From positions 1 through 34,937 of the IMG/VR virus record IMGVR_UViG_3300006921_000061: a stretch of 34,937 nucleotides of DNA; one strand, 5' to 3'. A model generated the notes under the pieces. It had not been told where the DNA came from and ran no database searches. It saw only the letters and a list, made by a program, of their open reading frames with translations. This DNA is from a virus. The translations under genes were made by a program, and so were the position numbers. Below, piece by piece: positions 21,009-34,058 of this stretch. The number at the start of each line of letters is the position of its first letter. Position 1 is the stretch's first letter.

Positions 21009-21206
21009 TTAAATTGAGTGGACTTGATCTTCCTCCAGTTCAACACGGGGGAAATCTTTCATCCGTTCAAAACGTTCTTGTTTTTCCTCATTGAGACGTT
21101 TGACTGTCTCGGTTTTTGACATCTCCTTCTGTAAATGAGGGAGATTGTCGTTAAAGCGTTTTAGCTCTTTGGTAAGAACCTTTATTGCTATCTCAAGAGA
21201 ATTCAT
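21009..21206 (-). CDS. Small coiled-coil protein, unknown
   Basis: Protein of 65 residues, almost wholly helical and charged (LTKELKRFNDNLPHLQKEMSKTETVKRLNEEKQERFERM), with an acidic C-terminus. The ATG overlaps the end of the Cro-like gene by 14 bases, and the exonuclease gene follows 18 bases later. Possibly a regulator or nuclease cofactor, but nothing specific is recognisable. Confidence 0.5.
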   Translation of the reverse strand: MNSLEIAIKVLTKELKRFNDNLPHLQKEMSKTETVKRLNEEKQERFERMKDFPRVELEEDQVHSI

Positions 21207-21396
21207 CTAGTAACCTCCTCTTTAAATCTTGTTTGCGTTTATTGAGTGCTTGCATGACTGCAGAACTCACTTTGGGGTTTTGTCTCTTCCCTGAGACGAC
21301 CATATATGTGTAGGTAGGGGTCACACCTATGTCCTTGGCGATTTGTTGAAGATTCACTCCTCCCCAGAACTTCACTTGCTCTTGCAAATGGCTCAT
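21193..21396 (-). CDS. Cro-like HTH DNA-binding protein
   Basis: Protein of 67 residues from ATG 21396. The sequence VNLQQIAKDIGVTPTYTYMVVSGKRQNPKVSSAVMQAL is a helix-turn-helix of XRE/Cro type, with QIAKDIGVT as first helix and turn and YTYMVVSGKR as the recognition part. The frame is open to 21483, but that start lies upstream of the mapped promoter -10, so the shorter start is preferred. It is the first gene of the leftward early operon, divergent from the repressor side, as Cro is in lambdoid phages. Confidence 0.65.
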   Translation of the reverse strand: MSHLQEQVKFWGGVNLQQIAKDIGVTPTYTYMVVSGKRQNPKVSSAVMQALNKRKQDLKRRLLDEFS

Positions 21397-21454
21397 GTCG
21401 TTTTTTCTTGCTTTAGTCTGAAGGTCTGTTAGGTTAAAGAACAGAAACAGGGAC

Positions 21455-21483
21455 ACTATATGTGTACTTTCACATAAAGTCAA
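21455..21483 (-). promoter_or_regulatory. Leftward early promoter with operator O1 in its spacer
   Basis: On the minus strand TTGACT (21478-21483), a 17-bp spacer and TATAGT (21455-21460) form a good sigma-70 promoter. Transcription should start near 21448, giving a leader of about 50 bases before the Cro-like gene. A perfect palindrome TATGTG-N6-CACATA (21459-21476) fills the spacer, so a bound repressor would block RNA polymerase. The same unit recurs at 28859-28887. Confidence 0.7.
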
Positions 21484-21489
21484 ATATTT

Positions 21490-21506
21490 TATGCATTAAG
21501 CACATA
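21490..21506. promoter_or_regulatory. Operator O2, degenerate copy
   Basis: TATGCA-N5-CACATA, centre about 30.5 bp from the centre of O1. It overlaps a possible rightward -10 (CATAAT, 21503-21508) whose -35 is poor. It lies just before the small gene at 21522, so repressor bound here could tune rightward transcription toward its own gene. Confidence 0.5.
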
Positions 21507-21521: not shown

Positions 21522-21680
21522 ATGTCACGAAGAAATCAAATCTTTGACCAAGGGAAATTGGAATTGGAATTGCTAGGACAAACCTGGTGGACAAAAAAGT
21601 TCCTAGGTTTTGATTGGTGTTTACAGCGTAACAAATCCCTTTTTGGGGTTTTGCATCGTGGAGGAGGTCCTATTGAGTAA
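21522..21680 (+). CDS. Small protein in the lysogeny operon, unknown
   Basis: Protein of 52 residues (MSRRNQIFDQGKLELELLGQ, then TWWTKKFLGFDWCLQRNKS and a Gly-rich end). AAAGG lies 5 bases before the ATG. It is the first rightward gene after the divergent control region and overlaps the next gene by 8 bases. Basic and Trp-rich; a small DNA- or protein-binding regulator (excisionase or antirepressor) is conceivable, but there is no recognisable family. Confidence 0.45.
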   Translation: MSRRNQIFDQGKLELELLGQTWWTKKFLGFDWCLQRNKSLFGVLHRGGGPIE

Positions 21681-22092
21681 TATATGGAAACCTAAAACTT
21701 CAGGACTTGGGGAGCATGATTTTCAATTTAATGTTCCACCACCTCAAATAAACAGCGGTGACGTATTGGCTATCCACCACCGCTCTACCAACTCAGAGAT
21801 AGGCCATGTGGCACATAGTGGACGGGCCACGTTAAAAAATAACACCAGTAGAATTAGCACCTCTGCCACTAGGAAATTTATTAGCTCATCCTTTGCAGGA
21901 GGGCGTTGGGATCGAGGGGTATTGACCAAAAAATCCGAATATGGCAATCCGCATACCTCAGAGCTTCGAGGTATTTGGAAAGGGTGGGATTTAACGATCA
22001 GGACCATAACTCATACAACAAAAAATCCGATGCTGAATTTTGAACGAGATTACTCGTCAAGATCGCTAATCGGACTACCACCACCAATCTAA
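21673..22092 (+). CDS. Hypothetical protein with TTG start
   Basis: Encodes 139 residues from TTG 21673, which follows a strong GAGGAGG (21661-21667) at 5 bases and overlaps the previous stop region. The protein is Ser/Thr/Arg/Asn-rich with an SSSFAGGRWDRGVLTKKSEYGNPH segment. Coding status is not certain: an 87-residue frame is also open on the other strand, and the DNA carries inverted repeats (7-bp arms at 21754-21784 and at 21953-21974). It lies upstream of the repressor gene in the same direction. Confidence 0.4.
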   Translation: MSNIWKPKTSGLGEHDFQFNVPPPQINSGDVLAIHHRSTNSEIGHVAHSGRATLKNNTSRISTSATRKFISSSFAGGRWDRGVLTKKSEYGNPHTSELRGIWKGWDLTIRTITHTTKNPMLNFERDYSSRSLIGLPPPI

Positions 22093-22178: not shown

Positions 22179-22613
22179 ATGGAAGACTTATCTACACGTT
22201 TGAAACAGGTAAGAACAGAATTGAATCTGTCTCAAACCGAACTTGCTGAGAAACTTGATGTTCAGCAAGCAGACATATCACGTTGGGAATCTGGTAAAAC
22301 AACACCAAATTTCCAGACGTTACAGAAGTATTCATCATTAAACGTCAATGTATCCTGGTTATTTACAGGCATTGGTAAAATATTTGATGAAGTCGTTGAT
22401 GGAACTACTTATGCGGAAAAGCGTATGTTTCTGCGTAAAACCAATGGTTCAGAGTATGAAATAATAGCGGTAGAACAGCATGAAAATGGAGAGGTAGAAC
22501 GCAGAGAACCATATTCGTGGGAAAATCATTTGGCTTCAATATCCTGGTACATTGCAAGCTTGGAGAAGCACATTGCCACAGAAGCAGAAGGACTGGTTTC
22601 CAGACAAGCGTAG
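22179..22613 (+). CDS. CI-like transcriptional repressor (XRE HTH)
   Basis: Protein of 144 residues from ATG 22179. The N-terminus (MEDLSTRLKQVRTELNLSQTELAEKLDVQQADISRWESGK, about residues 1-40) is a textbook XRE helix-turn-helix, followed by WLFTGIGKIF. The rest is short and lacks the Ser/Lys peptidase domain of lambda CI and LexA, so RecA-stimulated self-cleavage is unlikely. It is the probable ligand of the TATGTG-N6-CACATA operators, but this is inference. There is no clear ribosome-binding site; an in-frame ATG at 22134 would add 15 residues. Confidence 0.7.
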   Translation: MEDLSTRLKQVRTELNLSQTELAEKLDVQQADISRWESGKTTPNFQTLQKYSSLNVNVSWLFTGIGKIFDEVVDGTTYAEKRMFLRKTNGSEYEIIAVEQHENGEVERREPYSWENHLASISWYIASLEKHIATEAEGLVSRQA

Positions 22614-22620
22614 AGACACG

Positions 22621-23739
22621 ATGGTTGGAAGATTTTCTATGTTCAAATCATCTAAAGGTTATCCACTAAATCGTGATTTATGTTCAGTCGAACAGGCAAA
22701 TTACTACGATACTAAGAAAGGCAAACGCAAAAGATCAGACGAACAGTACCATCGCTACATGAATCAGCTTTGGAATACAAAGTACAAAGCACTATTAGAG
22801 GCACGAAACGCACATAAAGAGGTAAAGTTGAGCGAAGCAGAAAAGCATAGTTTAAATGAAGCTATAACTCGGTACTTAGAATTTGAAATCAATTTGCAAA
22901 GGCCAAGATCGCAGGATGAAGCCAAACGACAGTTACGATACTGGGATAGACATCTCGGTTATCTACCATTGTCTGAAATAACACCAGCAAGATTATCAGA
23001 GCATAAAGACTCTTTATCGAGCCATGTTATTACAACCGATGGCAGAGGTAAGGGTAAGAAACGATCTCCAGCTACTGTAAACAGGTATTTTGCAGCATTG
23101 GGTGCTGTTATGACTTGTTGTGTTGAGAAATGGTACTGGCTGGATATATCTCCTACCCGTTTAGTTCCAAGTATGCCTGAATCTAAAGGCAGAACTCGGT
23201 TCTTATCTGAAGATGAACTGCAACGGTTACTTGAAACAATATCATCAAATAAGGCATTAGAACTTGCGGTAATCCTTGCTCTTTCCACAGGAGCAAGACA
23301 GGCCGAAATCTGGTCCCTCAAGTGGAACCAAGTCGATATGAAGGAAGGTAGACTCACTTTTATCGTTACCAAAAATGGCGACGAACGGAGTGTCCCTATC
23401 AGAGGTAAAGCCTTTGACCTTATGAAAGGCTTCAGGAGGAATCTCGACACACCATATGTCTTTCCATCCAAGATAAAGTCTAAGCGACTGACTACCTCCT
23501 TTGACTTTAAAAAACCGTTTAATGAAGCTCTTAAAAAGTCTGAGATACTTGATTTTTGCTGGCACGATCTCAGGCATACTGCTGCTTCGTACCTTGCGAT
23601 GAACGGAGCCACTCTCCGTGAGATTGCGGAAATTCTGGGTCATAAGTCTTTGGATATGGTAATGCGGTACTCTCACTTGACTAAGGAGCATACTGCAGAG
23701 GTTATTGAAAAAATGAATGAAAAAATGTTTGCTTCTTGA
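22621..23739 (+). CDS. int: Tyrosine-type integrase
   Basis: Site-specific recombinase inserting the phage at its attB. Counting from ATG 22621 (372 aa), all catalytic residues are present: R226 (GARQAEIW), K251, H315 and R318 (WHDLRHT), H341 (LGHKS) and the nucleophile Y350 (MRYSHL). A SAM-like core-binding domain spans about residues 75-175, and a Lys-rich N-terminus may recognise arm sites. ATG 22639 is an alternative start with a better GGAAG. It follows the repressor gene by 7 bases, so both are probably co-transcribed. attP lies directly downstream. Confidence 0.9.
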   Translation: MVGRFSMFKSSKGYPLNRDLCSVEQANYYDTKKGKRKRSDEQYHRYMNQLWNTKYKALLEARNAHKEVKLSEAEKHSLNEAITRYLEFEINLQRPRSQDEAKRQLRYWDRHLGYLPLSEITPARLSEHKDSLSSHVITTDGRGKGKKRSPATVNRYFAALGAVMTCCVEKWYWLDISPTRLVPSMPESKGRTRFLSEDELQRLLETISSNKALELAVILALSTGARQAEIWSLKWNQVDMKEGRLTFIVTKNGDERSVPIRGKAFDLMKGFRRNLDTPYVFPSKIKSKRLTTSFDFKKPFNEALKKSEILDFCWHDLRHTAASYLAMNGATLREIAEILGHKSLDMVMRYSHLTKEHTAEVIEKMNEKMFAS

Positions 23740-23747
23740 GTCACCCT

Positions 23748-23770
23748 GAAACTCAGATGATTCTCAGATA
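23748..23770 (+). repeat. attP left arm: integrase arm-type repeat pair
   Basis: Two direct copies of a 9-base unit: AACTCAGAT (23750-23758) and TTCTCAGAT (23761-23769), 11 bp apart, just after the integrase stop. The same unit occurs as two more pairs on the other side of the tRNA core. This matches arm-type sites recognised by the N-terminal domain of lambda-type integrases. Confidence 0.6.
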
Positions 23771-23813
23771 TTTAGGGGTTGCTTTGTAAACTGTTGCAAT
23801 TACTACAAGGGCT

Positions 23814-23863
23814 TTGGACTTCGGATCTGAAGGTTGGGGGTTCGAACCCCTCCGCCCGCACCA
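23814..23863 (+). other. attP core: 3' half of a tRNA-Arg(TCG)
   Basis: The sequence folds as the anticodon arm to CCA end of a tRNA. Stem TTGGA (23814-23818), loop CTTCGGA with anticodon TCG (23821-23823), stem TCTGA (23826-23830). A 5-base variable loop follows, then T stem GGGGG, loop TTCGAAC, stem CCCTC, acceptor strand CGCCCGC, discriminator A and CCA. There is no D arm or 5' acceptor strand upstream; instead the integrase gene ends there. It is therefore not a working tRNA gene but the crossover region that rebuilds the host tRNA 3' end after integration. Confidence 0.85.
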
Positions 23864-23890
23864 TTTTTCAACGGTTCACGTTAATTTACT

Positions 23891-23953
23891 GAAACTCAGA
23901 TAAACTCAGATAGGGTGTTTACTCACCTTCAAACTCAGATGAAACTCAGATGA
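23891..23953 (+). repeat. attP right arm: two integrase arm-type repeat pairs
   Basis: Four exact copies of AACTCAGAT at 23893-23901, 23903-23911, 23932-23940 and 23943-23951. They form two pairs with 10- and 11-bp spacing. Together with the left-arm pair they flank the tRNA core symmetrically. Confidence 0.65.
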
Positions 23954-23961
23954 GATTAGCA

Positions 23962-24816: not shown

Positions 24817-24830
24817 GTTTTATTTATGGA

Positions 24831-24870
24831 AAAAGGCAAGAATTAGGGCCAAAAGTTGCCTTTCAGCCCT
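24831..24870 (-). promoter_or_regulatory. Intergenic RNA hairpin with alternative pairing
   Basis: In the minus-strand RNA, AGGGC and GCCCT anchor an 11-bp hairpin (two G-U pairs) closed by a GCAA tetraloop. The loop side GGCAA can instead pair with a downstream TTGCC that is followed by a U run, forming a terminator-like stem AAAGGCAA/TTGCCTTT. The two foldings exclude each other or make a pseudoknot. It fills the gap between the DUF932 and DUF1281 genes. Confidence 0.5.
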
Positions 24871-24881
24871 GTAAAAAGCAA

Positions 24882-28096: not shown

Positions 28097-28558
28097 TTAT
28101 GCTACTTCTTGTAGCTGTTCTGCTTGTGCTTCCTGCTTGAGTGCAATGAGCATGTTGCTGGGTGCTCCAGGTACGTGCTCTGATGCCTGTGTGAAGGTGA
28201 CGTGCAGTTTGTCCTGCTTGAGGTCTTCTGCTGTCACTTCGATGTAGAATGCCCAGACACCACGTTTCTCGGTGTTGCGGAAGTAGGACTCGTCTGGAAT
28301 GAACGACTGACCGATGATCTCTGGATGGTCGTCTCCTTGGGCAAGCTTCCGTTCACTGATCCCTGCTGGAATGAAGCTCTGCAGTTGGCTAACGTCAACC
28401 GTACTTGCGTAGGTCGGTATTCGTAGCTCGACTCTGTTCAGCCCCTGGAAGTTCATCTTCGCTTGTACTGCCTTACGTAGTTCTGGTGTAATGGCTGTCT
28501 CAAGTGTGATGCCTGTCTCAGTGATGTTACCGTTGGTCTGTGGTATTGCTATTCGCAT
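28097..28558 (-). CDS. Hypothetical protein, first gene of the second leftward operon
   Basis: Protein of 153 residues, soluble, beta/alpha mixed (MRIAIPQTNGNITETGITLE, then ELRIPTYASTVDVSQLQSFI and a Gln/Glu-rich helical end). AGGAG lies 7 bases before the ATG. Base composition is clearly more GC-rich than the genes around it, which hints at separate origin. It is followed by a terminator-like hairpin, so it may be expressed far more than the rest of the operon. No family recognised. Confidence 0.6.
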   Translation of the reverse strand: MRIAIPQTNGNITETGITLETAITPELRKAVQAKMNFQGLNRVELRIPTYASTVDVSQLQSFIPAGISERKLAQGDDHPEIIGQSFIPDESYFRNTEKRGVWAFYIEVTAEDLKQDKLHVTFTQASEHVPGAPSNMLIALKQEAQAEQLQEVA

Positions 28559-28858
28559 GGCTAACTCCTAGTTGCGATTGTTGAGCTTATTGCTCTGACT
28601 CTCTTGGTTATCCAATAGAATCAACTCTTAGGAAGGATGGGGATTACTATGTCCCTGCTGTTGTTAGCCTGTCCTTGTATGCACTCTGTTGTGCTGTTGT
28701 GTGTCGTCTGCATTGTGCGTGTCCAGTGTGAGTACCCCATGCCCCTGCCCCTGTTGTGTATGGCCACCCCCCTCCAACAAAATGCCGATGTTGTGCACCC
28801 AGGGTCGTCCCTCCCCTCTATTTTGGGGTAGATATTGTGTTCTATTGTTGAACAGAGT

Positions 28859-28887
28859 TTTGTATGTGGTATTGCACATAGAGTCAA
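28859..28887 (-). promoter_or_regulatory. Second leftward promoter with operator O3 in its spacer
   Basis: Minus strand: TTGACT (28882-28887), a 17-bp spacer and TACAAA (28859-28864). A perfect TATGTG-N6-CACATA palindrome (28863-28880) occupies the spacer. Element order, -35 sequence, spacer length and operator are the same as at 21455-21483. Start of transcription is expected near 28852, driving the operon that begins with the 28097-28558 gene. Confidence 0.65.
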
Positions 28888-28894
28888 GTGTGAT

Positions 28895-28912
28895 TATGTG
28901 TAGAAGTAAATA
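28895..28912. promoter_or_regulatory. Operator O4, degenerate copy
   Basis: TATGTG-N6-TAAATA (right half matches 4 of 6). Its centre is 32 bp from O3, parallel to the O1-O2 spacing. It lies 17 bases before the first packaging-operon ATG, so it may affect rightward late transcription. Confidence 0.4.
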
Positions 28913-29156: not shown

Positions 29157-29353
29157 TGGATCTTAGTGAGGTATCTAGGCAATTGGAGAGGATTGCCAAT
29201 GCTTTGGAGCATCAGAACTTTGCTGCTTATGCAATTGATGAAGAGGGGAAATTTTCACCAGAATTTTATCAGGTTTTAGTAGGGAATAGGGTTAGAGAAG
29301 AACGGGAAGCCAATGCGAGATTGGAATTAGAGAGATACGAAAATGGATCTTAG
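29156..29353 (+). CDS. Small helical protein before the small terminase, unknown
   Basis: Protein of 65 residues, helical (MDLSEVSRQLERIANALEHQ, later VREEREANARLELERYENGS). It starts as TAATG with the previous stop and overlaps the small terminase gene by 11 bases. Its first 12 coding bases (ATGGATCTTAGT) are identical to those of the small terminase gene. Confidence 0.5.
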   Translation: MDLSEVSRQLERIANALEHQNFAAYAIDEEGKFSPEFYQVLVGNRVREEREANARLELERYENGS

Positions 29354-29807
29354 TCACATACGTTCAAAGCAGAGGATTACTTTTTTGAGGGAGTATGTAG
29401 ACACAGGTGACGCAGTAAGGGCTGCACGGTTTGCAGGATACGATCATGGTGATGAGAGGAAGTTGAAGTTACATGCATCGAATTTAAAGAGTCAGTTGAG
29501 GGAAGAGATAGATGGTTTGATGAAGGAGAAGTTATCAGGAGTTGGACCCAAGGCACTGACAGTGATGGAGAATTTAATGGACCGTAGTGAGAGCGATCAG
29601 GTGAGGCTTCATGCAGCACGGGATCTGTTGGATCGTTCAGGCTGGAAATCTGTAGATGGAGAACTGGATGTTAAAAAGACGGTTGAGGAGATGGAAGCAC
29701 AACTGGTCGGATTGGTGGGACGAGATGGTGCGGAGGTTCTTCTGGCAAAGGTACGAACTAAGCGAACAGTTACGGAGACATCGCAAGCACTTCCTGTCGT
29801 TAATTAA
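29343..29807 (+). CDS. terS: Terminase small subunit
   Basis: Protein of 154 residues. The N-terminal QRITFLREYVDTGDAVRAARFAGYD is the helix-turn-helix typical of small terminases (a FxxEYxxxGNAxxAAxxAGY pattern). A middle helix that would make the oligomer follows (VRLHAARDLLDRSGWK). It recognises phage DNA and recruits the large terminase. Position upstream of TerL supports it, although an 864-residue protein separates the two. Confidence 0.8.
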   Translation: MDLSHIRSKQRITFLREYVDTGDAVRAARFAGYDHGDERKLKLHASNLKSQLREEIDGLMKEKLSGVGPKALTVMENLMDRSESDQVRLHAARDLLDRSGWKSVDGELDVKKTVEEMEAQLVGLVGRDGAEVLLAKVRTKRTVTETSQALPVVN

Positions 29808-29809
29808 AC

Positions 29810-30034
29810 GTGGCACATGAAGTTCTTCAGACATGGGAGATGGATGGTAAACACCATGTCGTTCCGTCCGTTGGACTGAAAAAGGATCAGTCGATTGCGT
29901 CATTTGGACAAAGGTGGAAAGCAGAAGCATACGCAAAAGCAAGATCAGCAACTTTTAAATACACAGAAAAAGCGAGAGACAAAGTGAAGAAGCACAAGAA
30001 AAAGCGAAGGAAAACACTTCTGACTGATTACTGA
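29810..30034 (+). CDS. Small basic protein, unknown
   Basis: Protein of 74 residues from GTG 29810, two bases after the terminase stop; ATG 29840 is a shorter alternative. The C-terminus is extremely basic (KYTEKARDKVKKHKKKRRKT). The N-terminal half has an SFGQRWKAEAYAKARSATF segment. It probably binds nucleic acid or is cleaved or packaged with DNA. It overlaps the next gene by one base (TGATG). Confidence 0.5.
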   Translation: MAHEVLQTWEMDGKHHVVPSVGLKKDQSIASFGQRWKAEAYAKARSATFKYTEKARDKVKKHKKKRRKTLLTDY

Positions 30035-32628
30035 TGGCAGAGAAGAAGAAAAAAGGGATTTTAAGCGGGATTAAGGCTGCTACGGAGAGCAAGCCTACTG
30101 CTCTAACTGCTTCTGCAGGAACAAATCCGTCACCGTCAACTGTGTCAGGAGGTCGATCTAATCAAAAGATCAGTGCATTACAGAACATTCTGCAGTCTAG
30201 AAATGCTTCATCTGGTCCTTTTACTGGAACAATTACCCGTTTTACAAGAGATACAGATCCTAATACAGGAAAGAAGGGTAAGAAAAGACTGTATAAAACA
30301 CCTATTTCTCCATTGAAGAATGCTGGAATGTCTGAAAAAGGCAACATTTTGCCAGCAAAACTGGAAGGAATTGTTGATAACGTCTTAAAGGATGCCCAAA
30401 ACTACAGCAAAGGTTATTACAAACAGCAAAAAAAGCTTGGATATAAGCAAGATCCACGAACTGGGCTTTATTCAGAGGTAAAAAAAGTATCTGGGTTCCC
30501 ATCTCCTGCAGAATATGTCTTAGAAAACCTTCAAAAACTGATGTTGAAGGATGAACATGAGTTTAAAGGGGGAACCAACCAGAAAACTGGGCAAAATTAC
30601 CCAAATATTTTGATAAAAGGGAATAAACAGATCCAGAAGGTCGGTAATTTCATTGCACAGCGTCTTTTAAGCAAAAGTGTCCGTCAAAAACACGGAATAT
30701 TCACTTCTCCAATCCATGATGCATCTTTAGAGAAGCTTGCTGGTGAAGTTGTGATGACCGAAAAGGGACAAATTTCCAGAACAAGACAAGTCGTTCATGA
30801 CACTGGTGACAAGCAAAAGATTAAACCAGTAATGCTTGATGGAGCATCATACATTGCTAGTGAAAACATTGATGGAGAGTTACCTTCAAGAATGATTGAA
30901 GATACAAATTACGGGAATATTCTTCAGGGTCAAGAAGGGGGGCGACAAGTCAATGCACAGCATTTTGAAGAAGTTAGCATTTCAGGCATGGGTGATCCTG
31001 CAAACAGGGAACGTATTCCAGGAAATCCAAAGGTTGATTCAAATAGATACTTAAAACCTAAAGAAGCCAGTAAACTCAAGTCATCGCAAGCGTCAAGTTT
31101 GTCGTCTGTCAAACCTGGAAGTGCTGAATCTGTTAAAGCTGGAATCCCAGTTGTTCACAAAGGACAAAAGAAATTTTTTAAGACACAAGTATCTCAATCT
31201 ATTCTCACTGCACCAATTAAAGAATTAGGTCGTGTTTTGGAAGCAAAAAAGATCGAGGGACAGAAACCAGTTCAATCAGGATGGCAAGCTGGAGTAGATC
31301 GGTTGTTAAGCAAAGACGTTATGAAAACAGCAATAGAAGATCCAGAAACTGGATACCTAATTGAAGCTGATACCAAGACAGAGATTGAAGAATCTAAAAT
31401 ACTTGGTATGGACCCAAAAGAAGAACTTGATTCACCTAAATCACAAATCAAATCAGAAGGTGAGATTAATTGGGAAAATCAGCAAAAACAATCTAAAGAA
31501 ATCAAACTAGAAGCTGAAAGGATTAAGCATAGTCAGGGTGCAGAAGCAGCACGACAGTTTGAAGTAGATGCCTTATCAGCACAATCCAGGCTAGATGCAG
31601 AAACCTGGAATGAAGGTAATTCAATGGGTAAAAAGTCTGCTGGTGGAGTTTACGAAGGAGATGGAGGAATGAAGCCTTTGACTTCTGAGCAAATGAAGCA
31701 ATTAAAAACTACAGAAGCAAAATTAAAAAATACTACTCCACAAAAAATTCGGGTCAATCAGGGAATGGTAAGAAATTACCAAACAGGCAAATTAGAGATG
31801 ATGTGGGGATCACGTCTTGAAACTAATGAAGAAATAAATAAACGGACTGATCCTAAGAATATTAAAAAAGAGATGAAGAAGTTGAAAAGCTCAATGCAGA
31901 CTTATGTTAAGAAAGGTGCAGAAACTAAATATAATCCTCCTTCTCCAATGGAAGGATATAACAAAACCCTTCTTACAGGAATTGCTCCTGATACCCCATT
32001 TAAAAATCTTCAGAAGATGCCACCAATGTTTCAAATTATTGGTCCAGAAGGTCCAAAAAGCATGAACTTGGTAAATATGTCAACACCAAGAAGTGGGATA
32101 GTAAAGATGCATCAAGAAGTTAAACCAGATGGGAAACTGGAAACACCCGAAAAGATTATTGTCAGAACAAATTCTGAAAAAAATGCTGATTTTGTAGAAG
32201 ATGCAAAAAACCAAGCAAAAGTAAAACAAGATTCTAAAAGCAATGTTCCTAATCAGGCAAAACTAGATGCAATCAGTAACAGGCAAAAAACTTTAATTAC
32301 AGGTAGACCACCAAATCAAAAGAAAATAGAAATTCTTGGAAGCCAAAAACCAAATGTTTCTACAGGGTTTAAAGAAGGTAAAACACCAAGCGAACTTAGA
32401 AGTTGGTCTGAGGCAGAAGGTCCAGGATCGAAAGATACCAAGGTCATTCAATGGAAAGGTCGAAAAGTCTTTTTGGGAATGCCTTATCTTGGACTTGGTT
32501 CTGATATTATTCATGGACTTTCAACATGGAAGCAATCCAAGAAATCTGGAAAAGAATTCAACTTAGGATCGTTTATTCCAGCATGGGCAAAGAAGATCGC
32601 TTATGGAGAGGGTATTCCTAAATCATGA
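30034..32628 (+). CDS. Large unknown protein between small and large terminase
   Basis: Protein of 864 residues, Lys/Gln/Ser-rich, largely predicted disordered or extended, without enzyme motifs that I can see. The first about 60 residues are basic and low complexity. Residues about 100-260 look more ordered (PAKLEGIVDNVLKDAQNYSK, then a PSPAEYVLENLQKLMLKDEH segment). Charged helices follow, then a compact end with WKGRKVFLGMPYLGLGSDII. It is coupled to both neighbours (one-base and ATGA overlaps). A structural, internal or scaffold-like virion role is plausible. Confidence 0.55.
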   Translation: MAEKKKKGILSGIKAATESKPTALTASAGTNPSPSTVSGGRSNQKISALQNILQSRNASSGPFTGTITRFTRDTDPNTGKKGKKRLYKTPISPLKNAGMSEKGNILPAKLEGIVDNVLKDAQNYSKGYYKQQKKLGYKQDPRTGLYSEVKKVSGFPSPAEYVLENLQKLMLKDEHEFKGGTNQKTGQNYPNILIKGNKQIQKVGNFIAQRLLSKSVRQKHGIFTSPIHDASLEKLAGEVVMTEKGQISRTRQVVHDTGDKQKIKPVMLDGASYIASENIDGELPSRMIEDTNYGNILQGQEGGRQVNAQHFEEVSISGMGDPANRERIPGNPKVDSNRYLKPKEASKLKSSQASSLSSVKPGSAESVKAGIPVVHKGQKKFFKTQVSQSILTAPIKELGRVLEAKKIEGQKPVQSGWQAGVDRLLSKDVMKTAIEDPETGYLIEADTKTEIEESKILGMDPKEELDSPKSQIKSEGEINWENQQKQSKEIKLEAERIKHSQGAEAARQFEVDALSAQSRLDAETWNEGNSMGKKSAGGVYEGDGGMKPLTSEQMKQLKTTEAKLKNTTPQKIRVNQGMVRNYQTGKLEMMWGSRLETNEEINKRTDPKNIKKEMKKLKSSMQTYVKKGAETKYNPPSPMEGYNKTLLTGIAPDTPFKNLQKMPPMFQIIGPEGPKSMNLVNMSTPRSGIVKMHQEVKPDGKLETPEKIIVRTNSEKNADFVEDAKNQAKVKQDSKSNVPNQAKLDAISNRQKTLITGRPPNQKKIEILGSQKPNVSTGFKEGKTPSELRSWSEAEGPGSKDTKVIQWKGRKVFLGMPYLGLGSDIIHGLSTWKQSKKSGKEFNLGSFIPAWAKKIAYGEGIPKS

Positions 32629-34058
32629 GTGAACCTCAAGTCTTAGAACAGGCATTAAAAATTGCCGAACAGATTACAGAAAAGAAAGAGACCAATAGGC
32701 TCACATATTATGATCCATACGAGTACCAGCAGAACTTTCATGATGCCAGAGACAACGATGGTAAGTTGGCACGTCAACGATTACTCATGGCAGCAAACAA
32801 GACAGGAAAGACGTTTTGTGGGGCAGCAGAAATGGGATATCACCTTACAGGAATTTATCCCAAATGGTGGAAAGGATATCGGTTTCATGGACCCATTAAG
32901 GCATGGGCTGCAGGAAATACGACAGCAAACACAAGAGACATTGTTCAGGCCGAGCTTTTGGGTGAGCCTGGAGATGAAGAAGATTTCGGCAGAGGAGCCG
33001 TGCCAAAAGACAAAATTGTCAAATGGGAAAGACAACCTGGAATACCCAACGCAATTTCGACAGTGACTGTAAAGCATGTGTCAGGAAGAAATTCCAAGTG
33101 CTATTTGAAGTCCTACGAGCAGGGGAAACAGGCATGGATGGGGAAAGCCATCGATGTGATCTGGATGGACGAGGAACCCCCTCAAGATATTTACAGTCAG
33201 GCATTACGTGCTTCCCTCAAAAGCGGTGGTCTGACATTTATGACATTTACACCCGAATCGGGAATGACCAATGTCGTTGCCCAATTCATGAACGATTTAA
33301 AACCTCATCAGCAACTTTACAATGCTACATGGGATGATGCACCACACTTGGATGATGAGATTAAAGCAGAAATTCTGGCAGCACTTCCTCCTCATGAGAG
33401 GGATATGCGTTCCAAAGGTATTCCAGTTCTGGGATCAGGTCTGGTATTTCCTATTGACGAAAATCAAATCAAACGGTCGGCATTTGCAATTCCAGAACAC
33501 TGGTCAAAGATCTGTGCTCTTGATTTTGGATACGATCATCCTACTGCTGCTGTCTGGATTGCTCATGATAGGGACAAAGATGTCGCTTACGTCTATGACG
33601 TTTACCGAAAGTCTGCAGAAACACCAATCGTTCACTCTGCAGCAATCAAAGCAAGAGGAGACTGGATTCCTGTTATCTGGCCTCATGACGGTGCTCAACA
33701 CGACAAAGGATCAGGAAAACCTTTAGCAGAGATCTATCGGAGACAAGGGGTGAATATGATGCCCAAACATTTTGAGAATCCTGAAGGAGGACAAGGAGTT
33801 GAACCAGGACTCATGGAAATGCTTCAACGGTTTCAGACACAAAGATTATTGGTATTTGACCATCTCAATGACTTCTTTGAAGAGATGAGAATGTACCATA
33901 GGAAAGACGGGAAAGTTGTAAAGGAGCGTGACGATATTATGTCTGCCTGTAGGTATGCAGTCATGTCTATGCGTTACGCAAGAGGAAGTTATGTAATGCC
34001 TAGACGTAACGAGGCAATTGGCTTCCATGACCATGAATATCCATTCTATGCATCATAA
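32625..34058 (+). CDS. terL: Terminase large subunit
   Basis: DNA-packaging motor ATPase and nuclease, 477 residues. Walker A AANKTGKT at residues 56-63, Walker B VIWMDEE at 178-184, coupling motif TFTPESG at about 207-213. The RNase H-like nuclease domain has ICALDFGYDHPTAA with D300 as metal ligand, and an acidic DD motif late in the protein (ERDDIMSACRYAVMS). It would work on a prohead whose portal gene is not in the window. The start overlaps the large unknown gene as ATGA. Confidence 0.95.
   Translation: MSEPQVLEQALKIAEQITEKKETNRLTYYDPYEYQQNFHDARDNDGKLARQRLLMAANKTGKTFCGAAEMGYHLTGIYPKWWKGYRFHGPIKAWAAGNTTANTRDIVQAELLGEPGDEEDFGRGAVPKDKIVKWERQPGIPNAISTVTVKHVSGRNSKCYLKSYEQGKQAWMGKAIDVIWMDEEPPQDIYSQALRASLKSGGLTFMTFTPESGMTNVVAQFMNDLKPHQQLYNATWDDAPHLDDEIKAEILAALPPHERDMRSKGIPVLGSGLVFPIDENQIKRSAFAIPEHWSKICALDFGYDHPTAAVWIAHDRDKDVAYVYDVYRKSAETPIVHSAAIKARGDWIPVIWPHDGAQHDKGSGKPLAEIYRRQGVNMMPKHFENPEGGQGVEPGLMEMLQRFQTQRLLVFDHLNDFFEEMRMYHRKDGKVVKERDDIMSACRYAVMSMRYARGSYVMPRRNEAIGFHDHEYPFYAS

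Follow-up and report, generated by a model that had tools for sequence, protein, structure and literature searches.

The region around 28.9 kb of the window (the whole stretch of DNA analysed here, a linear and incomplete virus record of 34,937 bases) carries a predicted leftward early promoter, TTGACT-17-TACAAA (28859–28887, minus strand, 9/12 consensus), between a leftward operon whose first gene (28097–28558, minus strand) has no family match and a rightward packaging or late operon that includes the small (29343–29807, plus strand; PHROG 2538, 1.3e-7) and large (32625–34058, plus strand) terminase subunits. An 864-aa protein encoded between the two subunits (30034–32628) has no PHROG matches and is 41% identical in the relative L005, compared with 85–87% for the adjoining terminase genes. 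Between the leftward operon and its promoter, and just upstream of the terminase operon, lies a conserved noncoding block (28740–28830, with CCCCCCAACAAA..., GGGTCGTCCC / GGGTAGTCCC), which is present in the relatives, partly so in G001, and may serve as a cos or packaging site, or else as a leader element.

A second leftward early promoter, TTGACT-17-TATAGT (21455–21483, minus strand, 10/12 consensus), is the top promoter-like match of the immunity region at 21.4 kb and precedes the gene for a small Cro-like helix-turn-helix protein of 67 aa (21193–21396, minus strand; PHROG 1468 transcriptional repressor, 1e-4), the first gene of its leftward operon. Both promoters were called by their match to the sigma70-type consensus alone, and at 10/12 and 9/12 they are of unequal quality. 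The 21.4-kb promoter is predicted to drive the Cro-like gene together with the recombination and replication genes, and the 28.9-kb promoter the operon beginning at 28097–28558, with the DUF932 gene included. The probable end of this upstream leftward operon is a hairpin-like element after the DUF932 gene (GGGCTGAAAGGCAACTTTTGGCCC...TTGCCTTTTT, 24824–24875, minus strand, limits approximate), which all relatives conserve strongly, whether or not they have the lysogeny module, and in which two alternative stems can be drawn (AAAGGCAA ... TTGCCTTTT and GGGC ... GCCC). We discarded the notion of a single early operon cut in two by the lysogeny module, since relatives that lack the module likewise show the hairpin-like element beyond DUF932 along with a distinct Cro promoter.

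The gene set of the window, with terminase, RecT, exonuclease, RusA, endolysin, a tyrosine integrase and an XRE repressor, is that of a temperate, marine, podovirus-like phage, and its closest isolate by terminase is Pelagibacter phage EXVC032P Baldr (54% identity). The first ORF corresponds to the C-terminal two thirds of an 846-aa tail protein, which means that the window start cuts the tail tubular gene. Several kb of structural genes, corresponding to the terminase-to-tail stretch in relatives, are absent between the two ends of the window, and further operators could therefore lie there. Two scans of genome contigs for a host, with profiles of the Cro-like protein and of the terminase, gave no relative, and an Rfam search gave no match.

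The lysogeny module is encoded on the plus strand. Its 144-aa XRE-type repressor (22179–22613; HTH_3, 1.1e-13) belongs to the 434 repressor family, and the repressor gene adjoins that of the tyrosine integrase (22552–23739, recognised by a profile match). No peptidase domain was recognised among the profile matches of the repressor, so that induction would need another route, and its structure model was of too poor a quality for any reading. The attP core (23800–23862, plus strand) is the 3' part of a tRNA gene, probably tRNA-Arg, and is common to the relatives L005 and L049. It is surrounded by AAACTCAGAT-type repeats (23740–23960) that are likely to be arm sites of the integrase, and at this position L049 carries another repeat, CATTCCAGTTTCA. 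Between the operator of the immunity region and the repressor gene there is also a 137-codon ORF of odd composition (21680–22092), which may be noncoding or a moron.

The dyad TATGTG-N6-CACATA, hereafter O1, has exactly two matches in the whole window, TATGTGTACTTTCACATA at 21459–21476 and TATGTGGTATTGCACATA at 28863–28880, and each of them fills the 17-bp spacer of one of the leftward TTGACT promoters, just as the initial annotation had described. A whole-window scan allowing one mismatch adds nothing to these two, since every other match has at least two mismatches, and the reversed control pattern occurs nowhere in the window. In an exhaustive scan of all hexamer dyads with gaps of 0–14, O1 was the sole dyad found twice. 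It is important to consider how much weight repetition as such can bear: 63% of dinucleotide shuffles of the window hold at least one repeated hexamer dyad (mean 1.13), and we accordingly rejected any claim of significance from repetition alone. What lifts the pair above chance is that both copies are intergenic (intergenic sequence being about 5% of the window), that AGTCAA stands at an equal offset beside both, and that the 28.9-kb site is conserved in relatives.

The conservation and loss of the 28.9-kb O1 can be read directly from the related genomes. It is intact in L005, whose repressor is 93% identical and whose integrase is 79% identical to those of the window, and in L049, which shares the tRNA-type attP core of the window and carries a lysogeny-flank gene of 93% identity. 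It is also intact in L006, which is set apart here from the module-bearing phages, and in L050, to all intents the phage of the window itself. In the 42-kb relatives G001 and G002, searches for the repressor, for the integrase (with the query protein and with PF00589) and for attP gave no match, and no protein passed the HTH_3 cut-off; O1 is absent from the first and broken in the second. Over 105 positions of the promoter region G002 and L049 agree at 99, and of their six differences four are packed into nine bases over the left half of O1, with three in the six-base half-site itself (hypergeometric p = 0.002). The site is thus kept in L005, L006 and L049 and lost or broken in G001 and G002, and at 28.9 kb operator presence follows repressor presence. 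This loss or breakage is expected if the site matters only when the repressor is present, and the correlation is strong in detail and small in number, with three temperate-type relatives set against two without the module. No further immunity region that includes a repressor turned up in scans with the repressor, integrase and Cro-like proteins, and the window is the sole source of the 21.4-kb O1.

With this in mind, we propose the XRE repressor (22179–22613) as the ligand of O1. The suggestion in the initial annotation that one repressor gates both leftward operons is very probable, given that the 28.9-kb site tracks the lysogeny module across relatives. When the whole collection was scanned for O1 together with the −35, eight contigs were returned. 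In the unrelated record L045 (9190–9915), a HigBA-like toxin-antitoxin pair has a promoter, TTGACA-17-TATAAT, whose spacer holds TATGTGATTTATCACATA, an operator of the same type, and the recognition helix of its regulator reads TQADISRLENG against QQADISRWESG in the window repressor. This likeness of helix and operator is a hint, independent of the relatives and amounting to one case, that the repressor may be the O1 ligand. Relatives of HigA on plasmids have other recognition helices and no O1, and therefore neither support nor contradict the link. Another promoter with an operator in its spacer is seen in L046, where TATGTGATATATCACATAATGTCAA (301–325) lies immediately upstream of a short leftward ORF (1–297) at the contig edge.

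The initial annotation had further proposed a degenerate second operator on the rightward side of each region, and here the comparison points the other way. The candidate at 28.9 kb, TATGTGTAGAAGTAAATA (28895–28912), has two mismatches to O1, and that of the immunity region, TATGCATTAAGCACATA (21490–21506), has a spacing one base shorter. One exact operator is seen per region, whereas the second sites put forward are poor matches and do not go with the repressor. At the 28895 site the left half, TTATGTG, is kept even in G002, which has no repressor, and the right half is never CACATA and is different again in L049; because of these two features we doubt the site, and it is probably not a repressor site. 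A related question is whether repressor bound at O1 also controls the rightward packaging or late operon, which would make the 28.9-kb region a full bidirectional switch. Such an arrangement would extend control of the leftward promoters and is not exclusive with it, and it gains something from the position of O1, which ends about 50 bp upstream of the first rightward ORF, and from the TATGTG stretch 32 bp from O1, which is conserved in all relatives except G001. Late operons, however, usually depend on a late activator or an antiterminator, and no sigma70-like rightward promoter was found at 28.9 kb in the window or in the relatives examined, so that control of packaging by the repressor is possible and unproven. 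On balance we regard the bidirectional switch as less likely than not.

A second dyad common to the two regions, missed in the initial annotation, lies just downstream of each leftward −10. This dyad, TGTT-N9-AACA, is found as TGTTAGGTTAAAGAACA at 21427–21443 and as TGTTCTATTGTTGAACA at 28838–28854, and beside the equivalent 28.9-kb-type promoters of L005, L006, L049, G001 and G002. Copies also stand at the Cro-like promoters of four relatives (G001, G002, L041 and L042), and the inner sequences differ among the copies in relatives. Since it was first spotted by eye, it was then tested against all tetramer dyads with gaps of 3–14 in seven early-promoter regions. It is the only gapped tetramer dyad present in all seven (the next best reaches three), and 2000 shuffles, with all dyads considered, gave a maximum of three regions; the early-promoter regions are related, so common ancestry accounts for part of this sharing. 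With three exact copies in the window, where about 1.5 are expected, the dyad is not rare genome-wide by itself, and it is the position that counts. The Cro-like protein is the likeliest ligand, because the dyad occurs whether or not a repressor is encoded, and because the protein is itself conserved throughout these phages (73–79% identical in the repressor-less relatives). TGTT-N9-AACA is thus probably the operator of the Cro-like protein, a prediction from the pattern of occurrence in which the helix-turn-helix assignment itself comes from weak profile matches and a moderately confident structure model that had no significant match when compared with known structures.

The converse assignment should also be weighed, namely that the Cro-like protein, alone or along with the repressor, is what binds O1, and that TGTT-N9-AACA is something else. 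In lambda, CI and Cro share operators, and the Cro-like gene here sits directly downstream of one of the O1 promoters. Judged by conservation, however, a shared operator of this type seems not to be used in the present phages: G001 and G002 keep the Cro-like protein and have no O1 at their Cro promoters, their 28.9-kb O1 is lost or broken, and TGTT-N9-AACA is kept at both regions, all of which makes this reading unlikely. That O1 serves a host regulator, for instance one like CRP, is more improbable still. The TGTG and CACA half-sites of O1 resemble those of CRP, but they are 6 bases apart as opposed to 8 in the CRP consensus, a spacing on which we rejected a CRP-like site, and a location inside the promoter spacer is ill suited to activation; O1 presence, moreover, follows the phage repressor. 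Least probable of all is that the repeated dyad reflects chance, or similarity of promoter sequences without a regulator, for common as repeated dyads are in shuffled genomes, the two O1 copies both lie between genes and keep one register relative to the −35, and L005, L006 and L049 retain the 28.9-kb site, whose loss where the repressor is missing is clustered.

The reading that we consider likely, and hold with good confidence, is that both O1 copies are operators of the one lysogeny repressor, in the manner of lambda OL and OR, with a separate Cro-like layer. We infer the pairing of proteins with sites, the act of repression and any consequence for the rightward genes, whereas the sites, the promoter-like sequences, the gene content and the way the sites are conserved or lost among relatives are observed directly. 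In a lysogen, repressor on each O1 would sit between the −35 and the −10 and would block RNA polymerase, and occupancy would silence the recombination and replication operon at 21.4 kb as well as the DUF932 operon at 28.9 kb. The Cro-like product of the 21.4-kb operon would bind TGTT-N9-AACA and turn both leftward promoters down later in lytic growth. The elements of this Cro-like layer are common to all members examined; the repressor, integrase and attP are carried by some only, and those that carry them have an intact 28.9-kb O1.

Two regulators with two sequence types beside the same promoters, as predicted here from the DNA, recall phages 186 (CI and Apl) and P2 (C and Cox), in which the repressor and the lytic-side regulator bind different sequences near the same promoters. 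The present phage differs from these in that the lytic-side dyad is repeated at a second, distant early promoter. It differs from Baldr, with which it shares a marine podovirus gene set with terminase, tail tubular proteins and exonuclease, in that Baldr has no O1 in its genome and no integrase or repressor among its annotated genes. Distant dual control by one repressor was regarded as unusual in the initial annotation, a view that the literature does not support, since lambda CI acts at two separated operator groups, OL and OR, with six operators in all (PMC10742460), and the Cluster A mycobacteriophage repressor (L5, D29, StarStuff) acts at about 24 dispersed asymmetric sites, or stoperators (PMC5712189). 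The paired distant operators are a new example of a well-known kind of switch. As in lambda, there is one XRE-type repressor with predicted, separated operator regions that overlap early promoters, the same dyad being found at two separate consensus promoters and overlapping their elements. Unlike in lambda, each region has a single good operator instead of three, the operators are 7.4 kb apart in promoters that both read leftward, and a separate type of operator seems to serve the Cro-like protein. Cluster A offers a likeness in its one repressor with dispersed sites and in a derivative without a complete repressor gene, the lytic phage D29, which keeps its sites (PMC5712189). Here, in contrast, there are two dyad sites in promoters in place of many dispersed copies (two in a window from which several kb of the genome are missing), and in the repressor-less G002 the site is broken.

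A broader proposal, which we entertain seriously and with slightly less than even confidence, is that lysogeny is a plug-in layer over a clade-wide circuit of the Cro-like protein and TGTT-N9-AACA, in which gain of the module would need an O1 at a second promoter 7.4 kb away and loss of the module would erase the remote operator by point mutation. The sites described here provide a testable immunity circuit for an uncultivated marine podovirus-like clade with both temperate and apparently non-lysogenic members. The clade serves as a natural experiment on the fate of a remote operator upon gain or loss of its repressor, and the operators are an immunity signature by which metagenomes can be screened with no need for culture.
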